A program made the position numbers and the translations under genes. From Clostridia bacterium (lineage in GTDB: Bacteria; Bacillota; Clostridia; Oscillospirales; CAG-272), in assembly GCA_017411745.1 (NCBI GenBank), contig JAFQPM010000002.1, positions 1 through 64,000 on the forward strand: 64,000 nt of DNA. The letters are read 5' to 3'. Below are positions 57,310-64,000 of this stretch, in pieces. Position 1 is the first letter of the stretch. The number at the start of each line of letters is the position of its first letter. The notes beneath the pieces are model-generated. The model did not search any database, was not told the DNA's origin, and was given only the letters and a program-made list of their open reading frames with translations.

Positions 57310-57729
57310 TTATTTCAGCTCGCTCTTGACCTTTTCTACCCAGGCGAGAATATCTGCCTTTTCAGCGTCGGTTACCTTGGAATCAAAGAGACCCATAGTG
57401 ATCTTCATGGTGTCCTCGATAACGTTGGTGCCTGCCTCGCGGAGAAGCTCCTTGGTCTTTTCGACACAAGCATCGTCTCCTGCGCTGAGGATAGCTACGT
57501 TTGCAGCGCCTGCCTTGCTGAGTCTGCCAAGGAAGAGTCTGTAATCGTCGGGAAGTGCCTTTTTAATATTTATTGCGAGAATAACGATTCTTTCCTTATC
57601 GCAGGGATATGCGGGGGGAATTCTGTCGACAGCGTTAACGCTGAGATCGTATTCCGCTTTGATCATGTTACCGATAGCGAGAAGTTTCTTCTTCTCGGGG
57701 TAGCAAAGTACTCTCATTTTGATTGCCAT
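57310..57729 (-). CDS. small flavodoxin-fold-like protein of unknown function
   Basis: A 139-residue soluble protein. The alternating strand/helix pattern (MRVLCYPEKKK, RIVILAINI, NVAILSAGDD, GTNVIEDTMKITMG) suggests a flavodoxin-like fold, but no FMN-binding loop is evident. GGAGG precedes the ATG at 57729; two upstream in-frame codons are behind it. It has its own promoter (TTGCAT-17-TACAAT) and terminator. The function is not recognised. Confidence 0.72.
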   Translation of the reverse strand: MAIKMRVLCYPEKKKLLAIGNMIKAEYDLSVNAVDRIPPAYPCDKERIVILAINIKKALPDDYRLFLGRLSKAGAANVAILSAGDDACVEKTKELLREAGTNVIEDTMKITMGLFDSKVTDAEKADILAWVEKVKSELK

Positions 57730-57774
57730 TGTTATGTCCTCCATTATCACGGCTCGTGTCCGTATCTTTAATTA

Positions 57775-57881: not shown

Positions 57882-58610
57882 TTATTTGAACTCGATGAGA
57901 TACTTGTTGTAAACGCGGTTGCGCATGATGCGATAGCTATCTGTATCTGCATCCGAGCCGAAAAGTCCGTTCTCCTTTATCGCGGTAACGATATACTCGG
58001 GGTTGAGGTTCTCGGTGCTTCCTGCGGAGAGAATCGTGTTGACCGTCATTTGTCCTTCGGCCGCGCTGAAGGAGATCTTTTTGATAAGTGTGGTTATATC
58101 AACGTCCTTTTCGCCTGATTTTGACTTTTTCTTCATAATTATGGGCGATGAGAAGAGAGCAGCCGCCTTTTTCTCGGTTTCCTCGTTGATCTTTGGAGAT
58201 TTAATGGTTATAGTATAGTCGGCGTACGCGATATCCGCAAATTTGGTTGAAGGATAGTAAGCCTCAAGCACGTACATCTCATCAGTCAGGTGGGAATTGA
58301 GGCGATCCTTGATCTCCTCGAGGCTTATTTTGCGCTCTATCTTGAGGTCTGCCATCTCGCACATACTCTCAGTGCCGACCGAGAGGGGAACACCGAAAAC
58401 GAGCTTTGCGTGAGGGTTGAAGCCTTTTGTATACCACATAGGAATTGCGGCTCTTACCAAAACTCTGTGGAAGGTTCTCTGAAGGTCGAGATGCGATATA
58501 AACTGAAGATTTCCGATCTTACAGAATTTTATCCTGACGGTTTCGGGGGCTTCGAGCATAGGGAGGTCGAGCTTTTTAGCGCCGGGTCTTATTTTCTTTT
58601 CGGACAGCAC
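57882..58610 (-). CDS. radical SAM-associated DUF2344 protein (TIGR03936-type)
   Basis: A 242-residue protein matching DUF2344: the KFCKIGNLQFISHLDLQRTFHRVLVRAAIPMWYTKGFNP block and GVPLSVGTESMCE are its hallmarks. It is regularly encoded beside, or fused to, the radical SAM protein found upstream. The start is GTG at 58610, inside the last 22 bases of that gene, preceded by GGAGGTGAAAG. The pair is usual next to rplU/rpmA or the ribonuclease G gene in Firmicutes, but not here. The function is unknown; a partner in RNA or cofactor modification is likely. Confidence 0.88.
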   Translation of the reverse strand: MLSEKKIRPGAKKLDLPMLEAPETVRIKFCKIGNLQFISHLDLQRTFHRVLVRAAIPMWYTKGFNPHAKLVFGVPLSVGTESMCEMADLKIERKISLEEIKDRLNSHLTDEMYVLEAYYPSTKFADIAYADYTITIKSPKINEETEKKAAALFSSPIIMKKKSKSGEKDVDITTLIKKISFSAAEGQMTVNTILSAGSTENLNPEYIVTAIKENGLFGSDADTDSYRIMRNRVYNKYLIEFK

Positions 58611-60445
58611 GATCTTTCACCTCCAAGCTTATTTGCTCCGCATCCCGAGCATTTTTCACGGCAGTTGGGCGTAGTCGAGCCCTCGTGCGCCTTTTTGCTT
58701 TCTCTTATAAGGAATTCTTTGGTTACGCCGCAATCGATGATATCCCAAGGAAGAATCTCGTCGTACGAATAGCGTCTGTTAGCATAAAACGCAGGATCTA
58801 CGCCCGAACGCTCAAATACGGACATCCACTTATCGAAATCGAAATATTCACTCCACGCGTCAAATTTGAAGCCCTCATGGCAAGCAAGCTCGAGTGCGGG
58901 GGCAAGTCTTCTGTCTCCGCGAGCCAATACTGCCTCGATACAGCAGATCTCGGCTTCGTGATGCTGATATTTGATCTTTCTGTCGGTAACGCATTTGCCG
59001 ATGAATTCCTGCTTTTCCTTAATAACCTCGAGAGTGTCCTGGGGCTCCCATTGAAAAGGAGTGAAGGGCTTGGGAATAAAGGGGGACACGCTAAAAGTGA
59101 CCTGCGGTGATTTTGCACGGTTTCGGTTGGGATTAGCGTAAAATGCCTCGATTACCTTTTTTGCAAGTGCGGGAATACCCATAAGATCCTCTTCGGTTTC
59201 GGTGGGAAGTCCTTGCATAAAGTAGAGCTTGACCTGCGTTTTGCCTGCATCGAACGCCACGTTGACAGCTCTCATAAGATCGTCCTCGAGGACATTTTTA
59301 TTTATAACGTCGCGCAATCTTTGAGTTCCCGCTTCGGGAGCAAAGGTTAGGGAAGAAGAACGAACAGAGGCGACCTTTTCCATAAGCTCCTTGGTAAAGC
59401 TATCGACGCGCAGAGACGGCAGGGAGAAGCTGACCATATTTTCCTGTGTCCAATCGAGGAGCTTGTCTGTAAGCTCGGGCAGTCCCGTATAATCGCTGAT
59501 CGAAAGCGAGGCAAGAGAAATCTCCTCGTAGCCTGTGTTTTCAAATATGCATTTCGCCTGTTCGTTGAGAACGTCGGGCGTTTTTTCACGCACGGGGCGG
59601 TAGATCATACCCGCCTGACAGAAACGGCAGCCTCTGATACAGCCTCTGAACACCTCTAGCATGATTCTGTCGTGAACCACCTCGGTATAAGGCATAATTG
59701 CATAATCCGGGAAAGGTGCTTTGTCGAGATCCTCGACGATACGCTTGATGATTTTTGTGGGAATATCGTCGTATAAGGGCGTATATGCCTTGATAGTTCC
59801 GTCTTCGTTATATTCAACGTTATACAGCGAGGGCACGTATACACCGGGAATGGTTCTTGCAGCTTCGTGAAGAAAATCTGCCTTGGTATATCTGCCTTCG
59901 TCCTTCATCTTTATGTAGAGATGTACTATTTCGACAAGGAGACTTTCTCCCTCACCGATATTGAACAGATCGAAGAAATCTGCAACGGGCTCGGGGTTAT
60001 AAGCGCAGGGACCTCCTCCGATGACGATGGGAAAATCTTCGCCTCGGTCGGATGCTCGGAGAGGGATCTCAGCAAGCTCAAGCATATTCAAGACGTTGGT
60101 ATAGGACATTTCGTATTGTAGAGTGAAGCCGAGAAAATCGAAATCCTTTACGTTGTCCTTGCTTTCGTGTGCCCAAAGCGGAATATTGTGCTCCGCCATT
60201 TTTTCTTGCATATCTACCCAAGGGTCATATACTCTTTCACACCAGATATCCTCCTCGCGATTGAGACAATCGTAAAGTATCCTGACGCCCAGATTGGACA
60301 TTCCTATCTCGTATGTGTCGGGAAAAGCGAAGGCAAATCTCGCTTTAATTTTTGTTTTATCCTTGATTATCTGACCGTATTCGCCGCCCGAATAGCGTCC
60401 TGGCTTTGAAACTTGTTTCAGGATAGAGTTTAATTTTTCATTCAT
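58589..60445 (-). CDS. B12-binding-type radical SAM protein (TIGR03960 family)
   Basis: A 618-residue enzyme. The N-terminal region (RPGRYSGGEYG and DTYEIGMSNLGVRILYD) has the cobalamin-binding-like fold of this family. The radical SAM motif CIRGCRFC (Cx3Cx2C) is near residue 261, and GCCGANKL-like cysteines at the C-terminal end (CREKCSGCGANK, CCPKR) may bind another metal. The reaction is unknown. The ATG at 60445 overlaps the stop of the preceding gene by 4 bases. The DUF2344 partner overlaps its end, so the two are strictly coupled. Confidence 0.9.
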   Translation of the reverse strand: MNEKLNSILKQVSKPGRYSGGEYGQIIKDKTKIKARFAFAFPDTYEIGMSNLGVRILYDCLNREEDIWCERVYDPWVDMQEKMAEHNIPLWAHESKDNVKDFDFLGFTLQYEMSYTNVLNMLELAEIPLRASDRGEDFPIVIGGGPCAYNPEPVADFFDLFNIGEGESLLVEIVHLYIKMKDEGRYTKADFLHEAARTIPGVYVPSLYNVEYNEDGTIKAYTPLYDDIPTKIIKRIVEDLDKAPFPDYAIMPYTEVVHDRIMLEVFRGCIRGCRFCQAGMIYRPVREKTPDVLNEQAKCIFENTGYEEISLASLSISDYTGLPELTDKLLDWTQENMVSFSLPSLRVDSFTKELMEKVASVRSSSLTFAPEAGTQRLRDVINKNVLEDDLMRAVNVAFDAGKTQVKLYFMQGLPTETEEDLMGIPALAKKVIEAFYANPNRNRAKSPQVTFSVSPFIPKPFTPFQWEPQDTLEVIKEKQEFIGKCVTDRKIKYQHHEAEICCIEAVLARGDRRLAPALELACHEGFKFDAWSEYFDFDKWMSVFERSGVDPAFYANRRYSYDEILPWDIIDCGVTKEFLIRESKKAHEGSTTPNCREKCSGCGANKLGGERSCCPKRK

Positions 60446-63321
60446 TTTGGTTTCTTATCTCCGTTTTGAAGAGTTGGTTTTTTAGGTATTAATTTTCTGA
60501 ATTTCAGCAAGGTCACGAGTGTAGGAACAAGTCCCAGCAACAACCCCAAATTGAGTATAAGTGAGCTATGTATTTTTATGAAGTTCAAGATCGTTGAATC
60601 GACAGCCGAATTGATTACGATGGATAACAAGCATGACAGAACTAGCCCTATTAGCATTAATCCGTAATTTACATATTTGCATACGGTCCTTTGGCGGACT
60701 ATCTCTTGAGATGTGCGAACTATTGTAGCAAGTCGGAAATCTCCGGAGTTGGAAATTACTTTGCTGTTTGATACATCGCTACAGCTGCGGAGTTTGTGAT
60801 CTTTGGGCTTGAATATGCCAACGGAAATGTTTCCTCCCGCATTTTGCTCGAAATAAACATCGTTTATATAAGGCTCATAGGACTCGACGAACACTTTGAT
60901 ACCGCGTTGCTCAAGCTCTTGAGCAGTGTGGATGAATTGAGAATTAACATTGCTGCCTAATATGAAGCCCAACTTTGGAATGCCATCAAATGCCATATAA
61001 AGCACAGATCGACCGGTGCCTTTAGTGGCTCCGTGGAGAGCACTATCGGTTTTGACCTTGATGTTATGGGCTTTCATATAGTTTTTGTCACCAAACAAAA
61101 TATTGATTGAGGCAGAATAAGTAATGTCAATGCCGTTGTCGGAAATGCCATTGATGACTACATCTTCATTTTTTGACGTTTGCTGGATCTTGCTCATATC
61201 TGATATAGTGCCGTTCAGCGCATTAAATACTTCGTATGCTATCTTTAATGAGCTGTTACCTGAAGCATATTGAGGCTGTATTTCAGAATATGAACTCACT
61301 GATATAACGTCTCTATCCTCGAATACAATGTTTTGTATTTTGGCATACTCGTCTGCCGCATCATATCCAATCAAGGCGATCTTGTTACCTTTAAGCTTGG
61401 TTGAAATGATATATTCGTGGATGGGGAACATAAACACGCATGACAAGGGAATACAAAGAAAAACTGCCGCCGTTGCCGAGGTTATTCCGTTTAGCATATT
61501 GCCTGTTGATATGACAAATGCACAACCCATGATAAGAGCAATCAGTGGAACCACACCTATAATATAGATAAGACTAACTGATGGAGGTTTACTTTGGACA
61601 GTCTTTTCAAAATACCCGCTTACAAGCGTTGTCCTTCGTATTTTGTATGTTTTTTCATTATGATAATCATCCAATTCGCCGGGATCAATTTTCTCGACGG
61701 TGAACAGCTTATTTGACGATGCAATCAGGTCGAAAGCGGCTGCTTCTTTAAGACAAGTTACAAGATCTGAAGCGACAGTAAGTAAAGCATAAAGAGCTAT
61801 GCAAGTGCCGAACAACGAAAAATCAGATATTTGCATCGATTTATGGTTTATCGTGTAAATAATTAGTGCGAACACATCGTATAGCGCGTAAATTGACATC
61901 ACAAATGCCAGAATAGAATATTGGTCGGGGTCAAATTTGAGTATACCCGTAATTCCCGCAAATAACTTTTTGTGTAGAACAAGAGCCACGAGAGCGACCA
62001 GTATAAGTTCTATGAATAGCAATATTGGAAAACTTTCCATACGGGTGGAATAACAATCAAAATAGATTGTTATAGAGGATATCATCAGGAACAAAACGAA
62101 TACCGATGCCGACATTACTATTAAAGTTTTTTTGCTGGATTGATATTTTTGATTAATGCGTGGGATCTGGTTTCTGTCGGTCAACTCTTTGCCACAAAAA
62201 CCGTATGGCGTTTTATTATCTTCGACAACAAATCCGGAATCGCCTTCATAAATGGCATTATGGGTTTTTTCTTCGCCGATTTTTGATTTTATCTCGTCGT
62301 TATATCCTAATTTGAGTAAAAGGGCAATGTCATTATCGTCATAAGTATTTTGTTCTTCGGTATCGATTTCCGTATCCGTATCAGAGCTTTCGGAAGGTTG
62401 CTCAAAAGAAGACAAAATAGATTGGAACTTTGGCAAACCTTCTTGCAGATCATCGTGTATATAATTATCAGGATCTAAAATCAATATAGGCTTGATTTCT
62501 TTGACCAAAACGGATGATTCTGTATCTTTATCTGATATTTCCTCAGAGCTATATTCGAGATTATTTTCGGTTTCGATACTGATTTGATGTGCAAGATCAT
62601 CGGAGATTACAAGATTATCATCGTCGGAATCGGGAGATATATCGTATTCTTCATCTTCTACAGCAAATTTGGATTCGGAATTGGGTGACTCGAGGTTCGT
62701 CGTATCATCAATGTCTAATGATATATCGTCAAAATCTTTTGGTTCATCAATATAAATTTCTTCATTATCGGACTTTTCGAGGTCGACAATAGTGTTTTCA
62801 ATCTCGGGTTCACCGAAAGAATCGGATTCTACGATATCACCATCGATATCATCTTCATCGAAGGAGTCAGGCTCAACGATGTCATCCTCGATATCATCTT
62901 CATCGAAGGAGTCAGGCTCAACGATGTCATCCTCGATATCATCTTCATCGAAGGAGTCGGGGTCGACGATGTCATCCTCAATATCGTTTCCATCGAGGGA
63001 GTCGGGTTCGACGATCTCATCTTCGATATCATTTTCAACGAAAGACTCGGGCTCGACAAATTGGTTTTCAGAATTGATATCACTGTTTTCGGTTTCGTCG
63101 TATTTTTGGCTGTGCGCTTTGTTTTCGGATTCGACTGCTTCTTCCTCCTCGGAGAAGAGCTTTGATAGAACAGCGGTTAGTTCAATATCTTCTTCATAGT
63201 CAGAGGGTTCGTCAAATACGTCGCTTGTCATATCGGAGGACTCCGCACCGTATGATTTTTTTAATTGTTCAAGGATGATGTCAAGTTCTTTTTCTTTTTT
63301 GTTTTTCTTCGGATTTGACAT
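60442..63321 (-). CDS. predicted pseudo-P-type ATPase with acidic repeat N-terminus
   Basis: A 959-residue protein. Residues 1-395 are very acidic and low in complexity, with a block of 15-residue repeats (about 91-180). From 399 on the layout is that of a P1B-type ATPase: four membrane helices (399-421, 431-450, 468-490, 501-521), a short A-domain-like stretch, two helices (583-604, 611-637, with IP in place of the CPx motif), a P/N-domain region, and two last helices (about 895-948). Alignment by eye puts GNKIALIGYDAADEYAKIQNIVFED on the classical pre-phosphorylation segment, but FEDRDVIS (residues 667-674) replaces DKTGTLT. A downstream RGIKVFVESYEP replaces the GIKVVMLTGD segment. So transport activity is not expected. 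AAGGAGG precedes the ATG. Confidence 0.75.
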   Translation of the reverse strand: MSNPKKNKKEKELDIILEQLKKSYGAESSDMTSDVFDEPSDYEEDIELTAVLSKLFSEEEEAVESENKAHSQKYDETENSDINSENQFVEPESFVENDIEDEIVEPDSLDGNDIEDDIVDPDSFDEDDIEDDIVEPDSFDEDDIEDDIVEPDSFDEDDIDGDIVESDSFGEPEIENTIVDLEKSDNEEIYIDEPKDFDDISLDIDDTTNLESPNSESKFAVEDEEYDISPDSDDDNLVISDDLAHQISIETENNLEYSSEEISDKDTESSVLVKEIKPILILDPDNYIHDDLQEGLPKFQSILSSFEQPSESSDTDTEIDTEEQNTYDDNDIALLLKLGYNDEIKSKIGEEKTHNAIYEGDSGFVVEDNKTPYGFCGKELTDRNQIPRINQKYQSSKKTLIVMSASVFVLFLMISSITIYFDCYSTRMESFPILLFIELILVALVALVLHKKLFAGITGILKFDPDQYSILAFVMSIYALYDVFALIIYTINHKSMQISDFSLFGTCIALYALLTVASDLVTCLKEAAAFDLIASSNKLFTVEKIDPGELDDYHNEKTYKIRRTTLVSGYFEKTVQSKPPSVSLIYIIGVVPLIALIMGCAFVISTGNMLNGITSATAAVFLCIPLSCVFMFPIHEYIISTKLKGNKIALIGYDAADEYAKIQNIVFEDRDVISVSSYSEIQPQYASGNSSLKIAYEVFNALNGTISDMSKIQQTSKNEDVVINGISDNGIDITYSASINILFGDKNYMKAHNIKVKTDSALHGATKGTGRSVLYMAFDGIPKLGFILGSNVNSQFIHTAQELEQRGIKVFVESYEPYINDVYFEQNAGGNISVGIFKPKDHKLRSCSDVSNSKVISNSGDFRLATIVRTSQEIVRQRTVCKYVNYGLMLIGLVLSCLLSIVINSAVDSTILNFIKIHSSLILNLGLLLGLVPTLVTLLKFRKLIPKKPTLQNGDKKPK
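62810..63060 (-). repeat. 45-bp tandem repeats encoding an acidic 15-residue unit
   Basis: Five to six units of 45 bp inside the gene at 60442. The central copies (62836-62970) are nearly identical and the outer ones diverge. Each encodes a variant of DEDDIEDDIVEPDSF. The period is a multiple of three, so unit number can vary without a frameshift. Confidence 0.9.
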
Positions 63322-63353
63322 GCCGGATCCTCCTTTCTGAAAATGTGATTAGA

Positions 63354-64000
63354 TCAATTATTTCTGTGTTGCTTTGCGACTTCACATAGGATAACGGATG
63401 CTGCGGTCGAAACATTGAAGGAGTTGACCTTGCCGTACATTGGTATAGATATTAGAACGTCGCAATTTTCAGTTACTATTTTGGACACCCCGTTTCCTTC
63501 GCTGCCAAATACAAGCGCACATGGACCTTTGAAGTTGGTTTCATAATAAGGTGTTCCTCCAGCTTCTGCAGCAAATACCCACACGCCTTTTTCTTTGAGA
63601 GAAAGAATCGTGTTGGTAATGTTGGAGACCTTGGCTATTGCCATGTGCTCTATGGCTCCGGCGGAAGATCTGGAGACTAAAGGAGTTAGCCCTGTGGATC
63701 GTCTTTTAGGAATGATAATTCCGTGCGCGCCCGTGCCCTCGGCACATCTGATCAGCGCTCCAAGATTGTAAGGGTCGGTGAGTCCGTCCGCGATAACGAT
63801 GATAGGATCTTCACCTCGGCTTCTAGCAATTTCAAGAATATCCTCGACCGAACAGTATTCCTTTTCGGATGCCATCGCAATTATTCCTTGATGAGTGGCA
63901 AAGCCAGACATAGCATCAAGCTTGGCTTTATCGGTTTCCACTACGGGTATGCCTTTTTCTACTGCCATAGCGACGAGAACAACTATAGATCCCTCGCGTT
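63354..64000 (-). CDS. rlmB: 23S rRNA (guanosine-2'-O-)-methyltransferase RlmB/TrmH family, partial
   Basis: SpoU-fold rRNA 2'-O-methyltransferase, truncated at the 5' end by the window boundary. An ATG at 63968 would give 204 residues, but the frame stays open to position 64000 and the upstream codons (encoding REGSIVVLV-A) continue the usual N-terminal domain, so the real start is outside. The C-terminal domain shows the motifs IVIADGLTDPYNLGALIRCAE, the trefoil-knot LVFGSEGNGVS and the end block NVSTAASVILCE. It is first in the operon with the pseudo-P-type ATPase, 32 bases away. RlmB-type enzymes methylate 23S rRNA; TrmH-like tRNA methylation is the alternative. Confidence 0.88.
   Translation of the reverse strand, partial: REGSIVVLVAMAVEKGIPVVETDKAKLDAMSGFATHQGIIAMASEKEYCSVEDILEIARSRGEDPIIVIADGLTDPYNLGALIRCAEGTGAHGIIIPKRRSTGLTPLVSRSSAGAIEHMAIAKVSNITNTILSLKEKGVWVFAAEAGGTPYYETNFKGPCALVFGSEGNGVSKIVTENCDVLISIPMYGKVNSFNVSTAASVILCEVAKQHRNN

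Follow-up and report, generated by a model that had tools for sequence, protein, structure and literature searches.

A family of P1B-derived pseudo-pumps encoded behind rlmB in an order of gut-associated Clostridia

Introduction

What does a bacterium do with a membrane protein that is built like a metal pump and lacks the residues with which such a pump works? The question is raised by one gene in the window, by which we mean the whole 64,000-nucleotide stretch analyzed here (Clostridia bacterium, contig JAFQPM010000002.1). The gene lies at 60442..63321 on the minus strand (ATG start, stop codon included) and encodes a protein of 959 aa. An earlier note, made from the DNA letters, had read the product as a catalytically dead P-type ATPase with a 400-residue acidic tail, encoded in one operon with rlmB and a radical SAM gene pair. 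Pseudoenzymes are well known among kinases and proteases. A search for literature on a conserved bacterial pseudo-P-type-ATPase family found none among open-licence papers, which is weak evidence. The family described below occurs nearly throughout an order of gut-associated Clostridia, has rlmB as a strict neighbor and carries conserved motifs of its own, and it has no Pfam or NCBIfam name. It raises two questions: what a dead pump is for, and whether the membrane might be linked to rRNA modification.

Results

Hydropathy analysis of the 959-aa protein shows peaks at residues 401, 431, 470 and 503, at 587 and 616, and at 889 and 921. The arrangement of eight predicted helices as 4+2+2 proposed in the earlier note was thus seen in the window protein, and it was seen in its relatives as well. 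The first four hydrophobic segments (residues 401-521, 61759..62121, minus strand as for all features of this gene) were aligned with the M1-M2 region of LpCopA. They are followed by a shrunken remnant of the actuator (A) domain without TGES, recognized by alignment (residues 526-585, 61567..61746), and by the M3-M4 pair with the conserved M4 proline P625 (residues 587-634, 61420..61563; hydropathy and alignment). By hydropathy a head of about 240 residues sits between the last two helix pairs. Profile and hhalign alignments together with conservation define it as a cytosolic P/N-like head (residues 648-885, 60667..61380), and the last two hydrophobic segments, M5-M6, close the protein (residues 889-939, 60505..60657). 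AlphaFold2 models of the core (590 aa) and the head (246 aa), made with three close sequences each, had a pLDDT of 31 both times.

The N-terminal tail (residues 1-400, 62122..63321) is acidic and of low complexity by composition, with 126 D/E against 21 K/R within residues 1-360. It contains a tandem array of a 45-bp (15-residue) unit in 5.5 copies at 62809..63057. A long N-tail is found in nearly all complete members, with a median of 382 residues in the window's family and 235 in the other families, and it is net acidic in 51 of 64 members. The tail claimed earlier is therefore present, at the N-terminus, but its acidity is usual rather than constant among relatives: what is conserved is a long and charged tail, not strictly an acidic one.

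Searched as a single sequence, the window protein gave no significant match in Pfam, NCBIfam or PDB. A profile of 31 relatives, on the other hand, matched LpCopA (3rfu) with E=6e-15 over the P/N head and, more weakly, over M1-M2, and 16 of the 31 relatives matched TIGR01525 individually. Compared by hhalign with two canonical P1B pumps from the same genome, the core alignment scored 98.3% (E=2e-14). The alignment spans nearly the full length with the actuator domain collapsed; DKTGT faces EDRDV, and TGD faces SYEP. The same profile found no match in two canonical P2 pumps (0.75%), and the controls did not exceed 0.6% in any of 20 column shuffles and gave 0.1% for the reversed alignment. Because the P1B match is strong and the P2, shuffled and reversed controls are negative, we consider the P1B (CopA-type) ancestry of the protein secure at the sequence level; a P2-type origin was ruled out by the 0.75% score. 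The family resembles CopA-type P1B ATPases (LpCopA, TIGR01525) in its helix order MA-MB-M1-M2 / M3-M4 / M5-M6, in the position of the P/N head between M4 and M5, in the M4 proline and in the N-domain glycines. It differs from them in an A-domain of only about 60 residues, in a head about 35 residues shorter, in a long charged N-tail in place of metal-binding domains, in the rlmB neighbor, and in the loss of DKTGT, TGES, HP, GDGxND and the CPC cysteines.

The extent of this loss was surveyed by aligning 64 relatives with four canonical P1B pumps. None of the 64 members carries DKTGT, TGES (the A-domain loop has only about 60 residues), the N-domain HP or GDGxND (motif IV). The CPC cysteine pattern of the M4 metal site is lost too, and P625 is kept in 57/64. 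In the head, 60/64 members retain the second G of GxG and all 64 the G of the GN motif. At the DKTGT site the family has the consensus [DE]x[DE]-hydrophobic-FP (D669 with D/E671 in 43/64), where the window protein reads VFEDRDVIS (residues 666-674, 61300..61326). At the TGD site the consensus is TxD(P/F)NI (D816 in 57/62, N818 in 42/62), and the window protein has FVESYEPYI (residues 811-819, 60865..60891). The window protein is a divergent member, with E668, S814 and E816. Judged from the alignment, the motif change is not plain decay: family motifs stand in place of the lost ones.

For the window protein, the earlier statement that the phosphorylated Asp, KTGT and TGD are all lost is correct, and KTGT is gone from 64/64 members. 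It does not extend to the Asp itself, as the phospho-Asp column still has D in 24/64 relatives, never with KTGT after it (E in the window protein). Homologs keeping DKTGT, which would have made the loss a local mutation, were looked for and are absent among the 64 aligned members; since the catalytic motifs are missing from every relative examined, and relatives occur order-wide, a local mutation is ruled out. Strong P1B homology and the disappearance of the catalytic motifs from every relative examined both bear out the pseudo-pump reading. As far as sequence can show it, the protein belongs to an order-wide family of P1B descent that has lost its catalytic motifs and carries family motifs instead.

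Relatives were found in 135 of 146 genomes in a family-level search. Of 297 genomes sampled across the order, 292 had a match at 1e-10 or better; since a canonical CopA protein may score 1e-10 as well, this count is an upper bound. The strongest canonical CopA match seen was 6.7e-26 (L105), and by our own count of the table about 255 of the 297 genomes have a match below 1e-25. Thirty genomes, including many weak cases, were reexamined: nearly all best matches there were DKTGT-less members, the exceptions being two canonical pumps (L083 and L087) and one genome without a match. A weak P-type ATPase match is no ground for annotating a metal exporter in these genomes. Among the matches listed for a class-wide sample, those outside the order covered part of the model (positions about 270-540) and lay in ORFs of typical CopA length; the one out-of-order locus opened (L105) carries DKTGT. 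No recognizable member was found outside the order in this sample, in which very diverged members could escape detection. Two close relatives are labelled Clostridia bacteria and come from sheep and roe-deer rectum.

Comparison with a 78% relative gave a dN/dS of about 0.12 (NG86), indicating purifying selection. Mean column conservation is 0.34-0.39 in the head versus 0.28-0.32 in the helices. The higher conservation of the head fits binding rather than transport.

Upstream of the pseudo-ATPase gene and on the same strand lies rlmB (63354..64000, minus, running off the window), which encodes the 23S rRNA G2251 2'-O-methyltransferase (match confirmed). The gap between the two genes is 32 bp (63322-63353), with a good Shine-Dalgarno sequence, AAAGGAGG, ahead of the pseudo-ATPase start. 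Downstream, a B12-binding radical SAM gene (TIGR03960, 932 bits; 58589..60445, minus) is followed by its partner, a TIGR03936/DUF2344 gene (181 bits; 57882..58610, minus). The 4-base overlap reported before is confirmed as ATGA at 60442-60445, where the pseudo-ATPase stop overlaps the TIGR03960 start. A consensus scan of the extended locus placed a promoter-like site and a terminator-like hairpin upstream, near the rlmB start (consensus matches only), and reported no minus-strand terminator-like site at the rlmB or radical-SAM junction. As the argument is drawn from spacing and consensus matches only, we infer that rlmB, the pseudo-ATPase gene and the radical-SAM genes would be co-transcribed.

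The rlmB link turned out to be stronger than first claimed: among 50 loci from 16 families, 49 have rlmB as the immediate upstream gene in the same orientation. In contrast, the radical-SAM/DUF2344 pair is a feature of the window's own family, being downstream in 18 of its 20 loci and in none of the 30 loci elsewhere. In other families an EF-G-like gene is directly downstream in about ten loci, and an RsuA-like pseudouridine synthase is nearby in some loci outside the window's family. The gene context of the family is mostly RNA modification and translation. Since the downstream genes vary between families, rlmB alone is the constant partner.

Some further observations concern these neighbors. 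TIGR03960 and DUF2344 are fused as one ORF of about 880-900 aa in three loci (L043, L045 and L047). Downstream of the DUF2344 gene, a 146-aa ORF (57310-57750, minus) matched nothing significantly in Pfam or NCBIfam, and L039 has a copy at the equivalent position. In the window's family (e.g., L040, L048 and L055), RlmB is extended at its N-terminus by about 30-135 residues rich in K/R/N; this extension is short in other families. Docking of this basic extension on the acidic tail was considered and found no support: within groups, the charges of the two are not correlated (rho 0.11, p 0.68 in the window's family; rho 0.27, p 0.16 in the others).

Discussion

What could the protein do if it does not pump? 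Our main reading, to which we assign a probability of roughly one half, is that of a P1B-derived pseudo-pump that acts as a receptor or scaffold anchored in the membrane and is coupled to ribosome/RNA modification or translation. The loss of the pumping parts together with the gain of new conserved motifs suggests that the protein is now probably a membrane-bound sensor or scaffold. With the phosphorylation motif, GDGxND, HP and the actuator TGES all missing, the ATP-driven cycle would be gone. The eight-helix membrane part would then be the anchor. A cytosolic ligand or partner may bind to the remodelled P/N head, which carries the [DE]x[DE]-hydrophobic-FP and TxD(P/F)NI motifs. The long tail, presumed to be disordered, could work as a flexible docking arm. 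Given the position of the gene after rlmB and often before RNA-modification or translation genes, the process that the pseudo-pump would most likely couple to the membrane is ribosome maturation or translation.

The retention of all eight helices and of the M4 proline (P625 in 57/64) could also speak for a passive or partner-driven channel or permease, in which the membrane domain was kept and the motor lost. We regard this as unlikely: the metal site has lost its CPC cysteines, conservation is lower in the helices than in the head, and the neighbors are not transport genes.

Another explanation accepts an anchor or assembly factor in the membrane and denies the RlmB link: the operon position may reflect expression needs, in the form of promoter sharing, instead of a shared process. 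The downstream partners differ from family to family, and the charge-docking model for RlmB contact found no support, both of which agree with promoter sharing. Adjacency to rlmB in 49/50 loci, although the other neighbors change, argues against it and leaves it improbable in our judgment.

The head could be a new enzyme, its former phosphorylation pocket rebuilt as [DE]x[DE]...TxDxN into a HAD-like phosphatase or a nucleotide- or metal-dependent catalyst. Both former catalytic sites hold conserved acidic residues (D669 with D/E671 in 43/64, D816 in 57/62), and the acidic pair at the motif I site, together with a partly conserved T/S at motif II, resembles the arrangement of HAD enzymes with a DxD motif I. 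Unlike HAD enzymes, the family has no match to any Pfam HAD family, and a counterpart of motif IV (GDGxND) was found in no member. The acidic pair is not invariant, and its one-column offset from the phospho-Asp depends on the alignment. We regard catalysis by the head as unlikely.

The main reading of a receptor or scaffold can be carried further, to a copper-pump relic that has become the order's dedicated membrane part for ribosome maturation, in which the [DE]x[DE]...TxDxN pocket would sense a nucleotide or metal and control RlmB-linked rRNA modification. We offer this only as speculation and consider it a long shot. That the gene is a decaying pseudogene, or its likeness to P-type ATPases a chance resemblance, has virtually no probability left: the window protein does match nothing on its own, but order-wide conservation, purifying selection and clean controls rule out these readings.

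A second family of DKTGT-less P-type ATPases, P2-like, is encoded in the same genome (G000:C12:62507-64906, minus; L038/L136). Like the pseudo-P1B family, it is a P-type ATPase relative that has lost DKTGT and lies behind a housekeeping gene. It differs in its P2-like parent, in a retained actuator match (PF00122, 52 bits) and in the housekeeping gene, which is of the ClpB/ClpC type. The lineage therefore keeps two or more kinds of dead P-type pump, with a housekeeping gene ahead of each. Relatives of the second family were seen in L137, L138, L140-L142 and L147, and in 7 of 7 loci examined the gene is directly downstream of the ClpB/ClpC-type ATPase gene.
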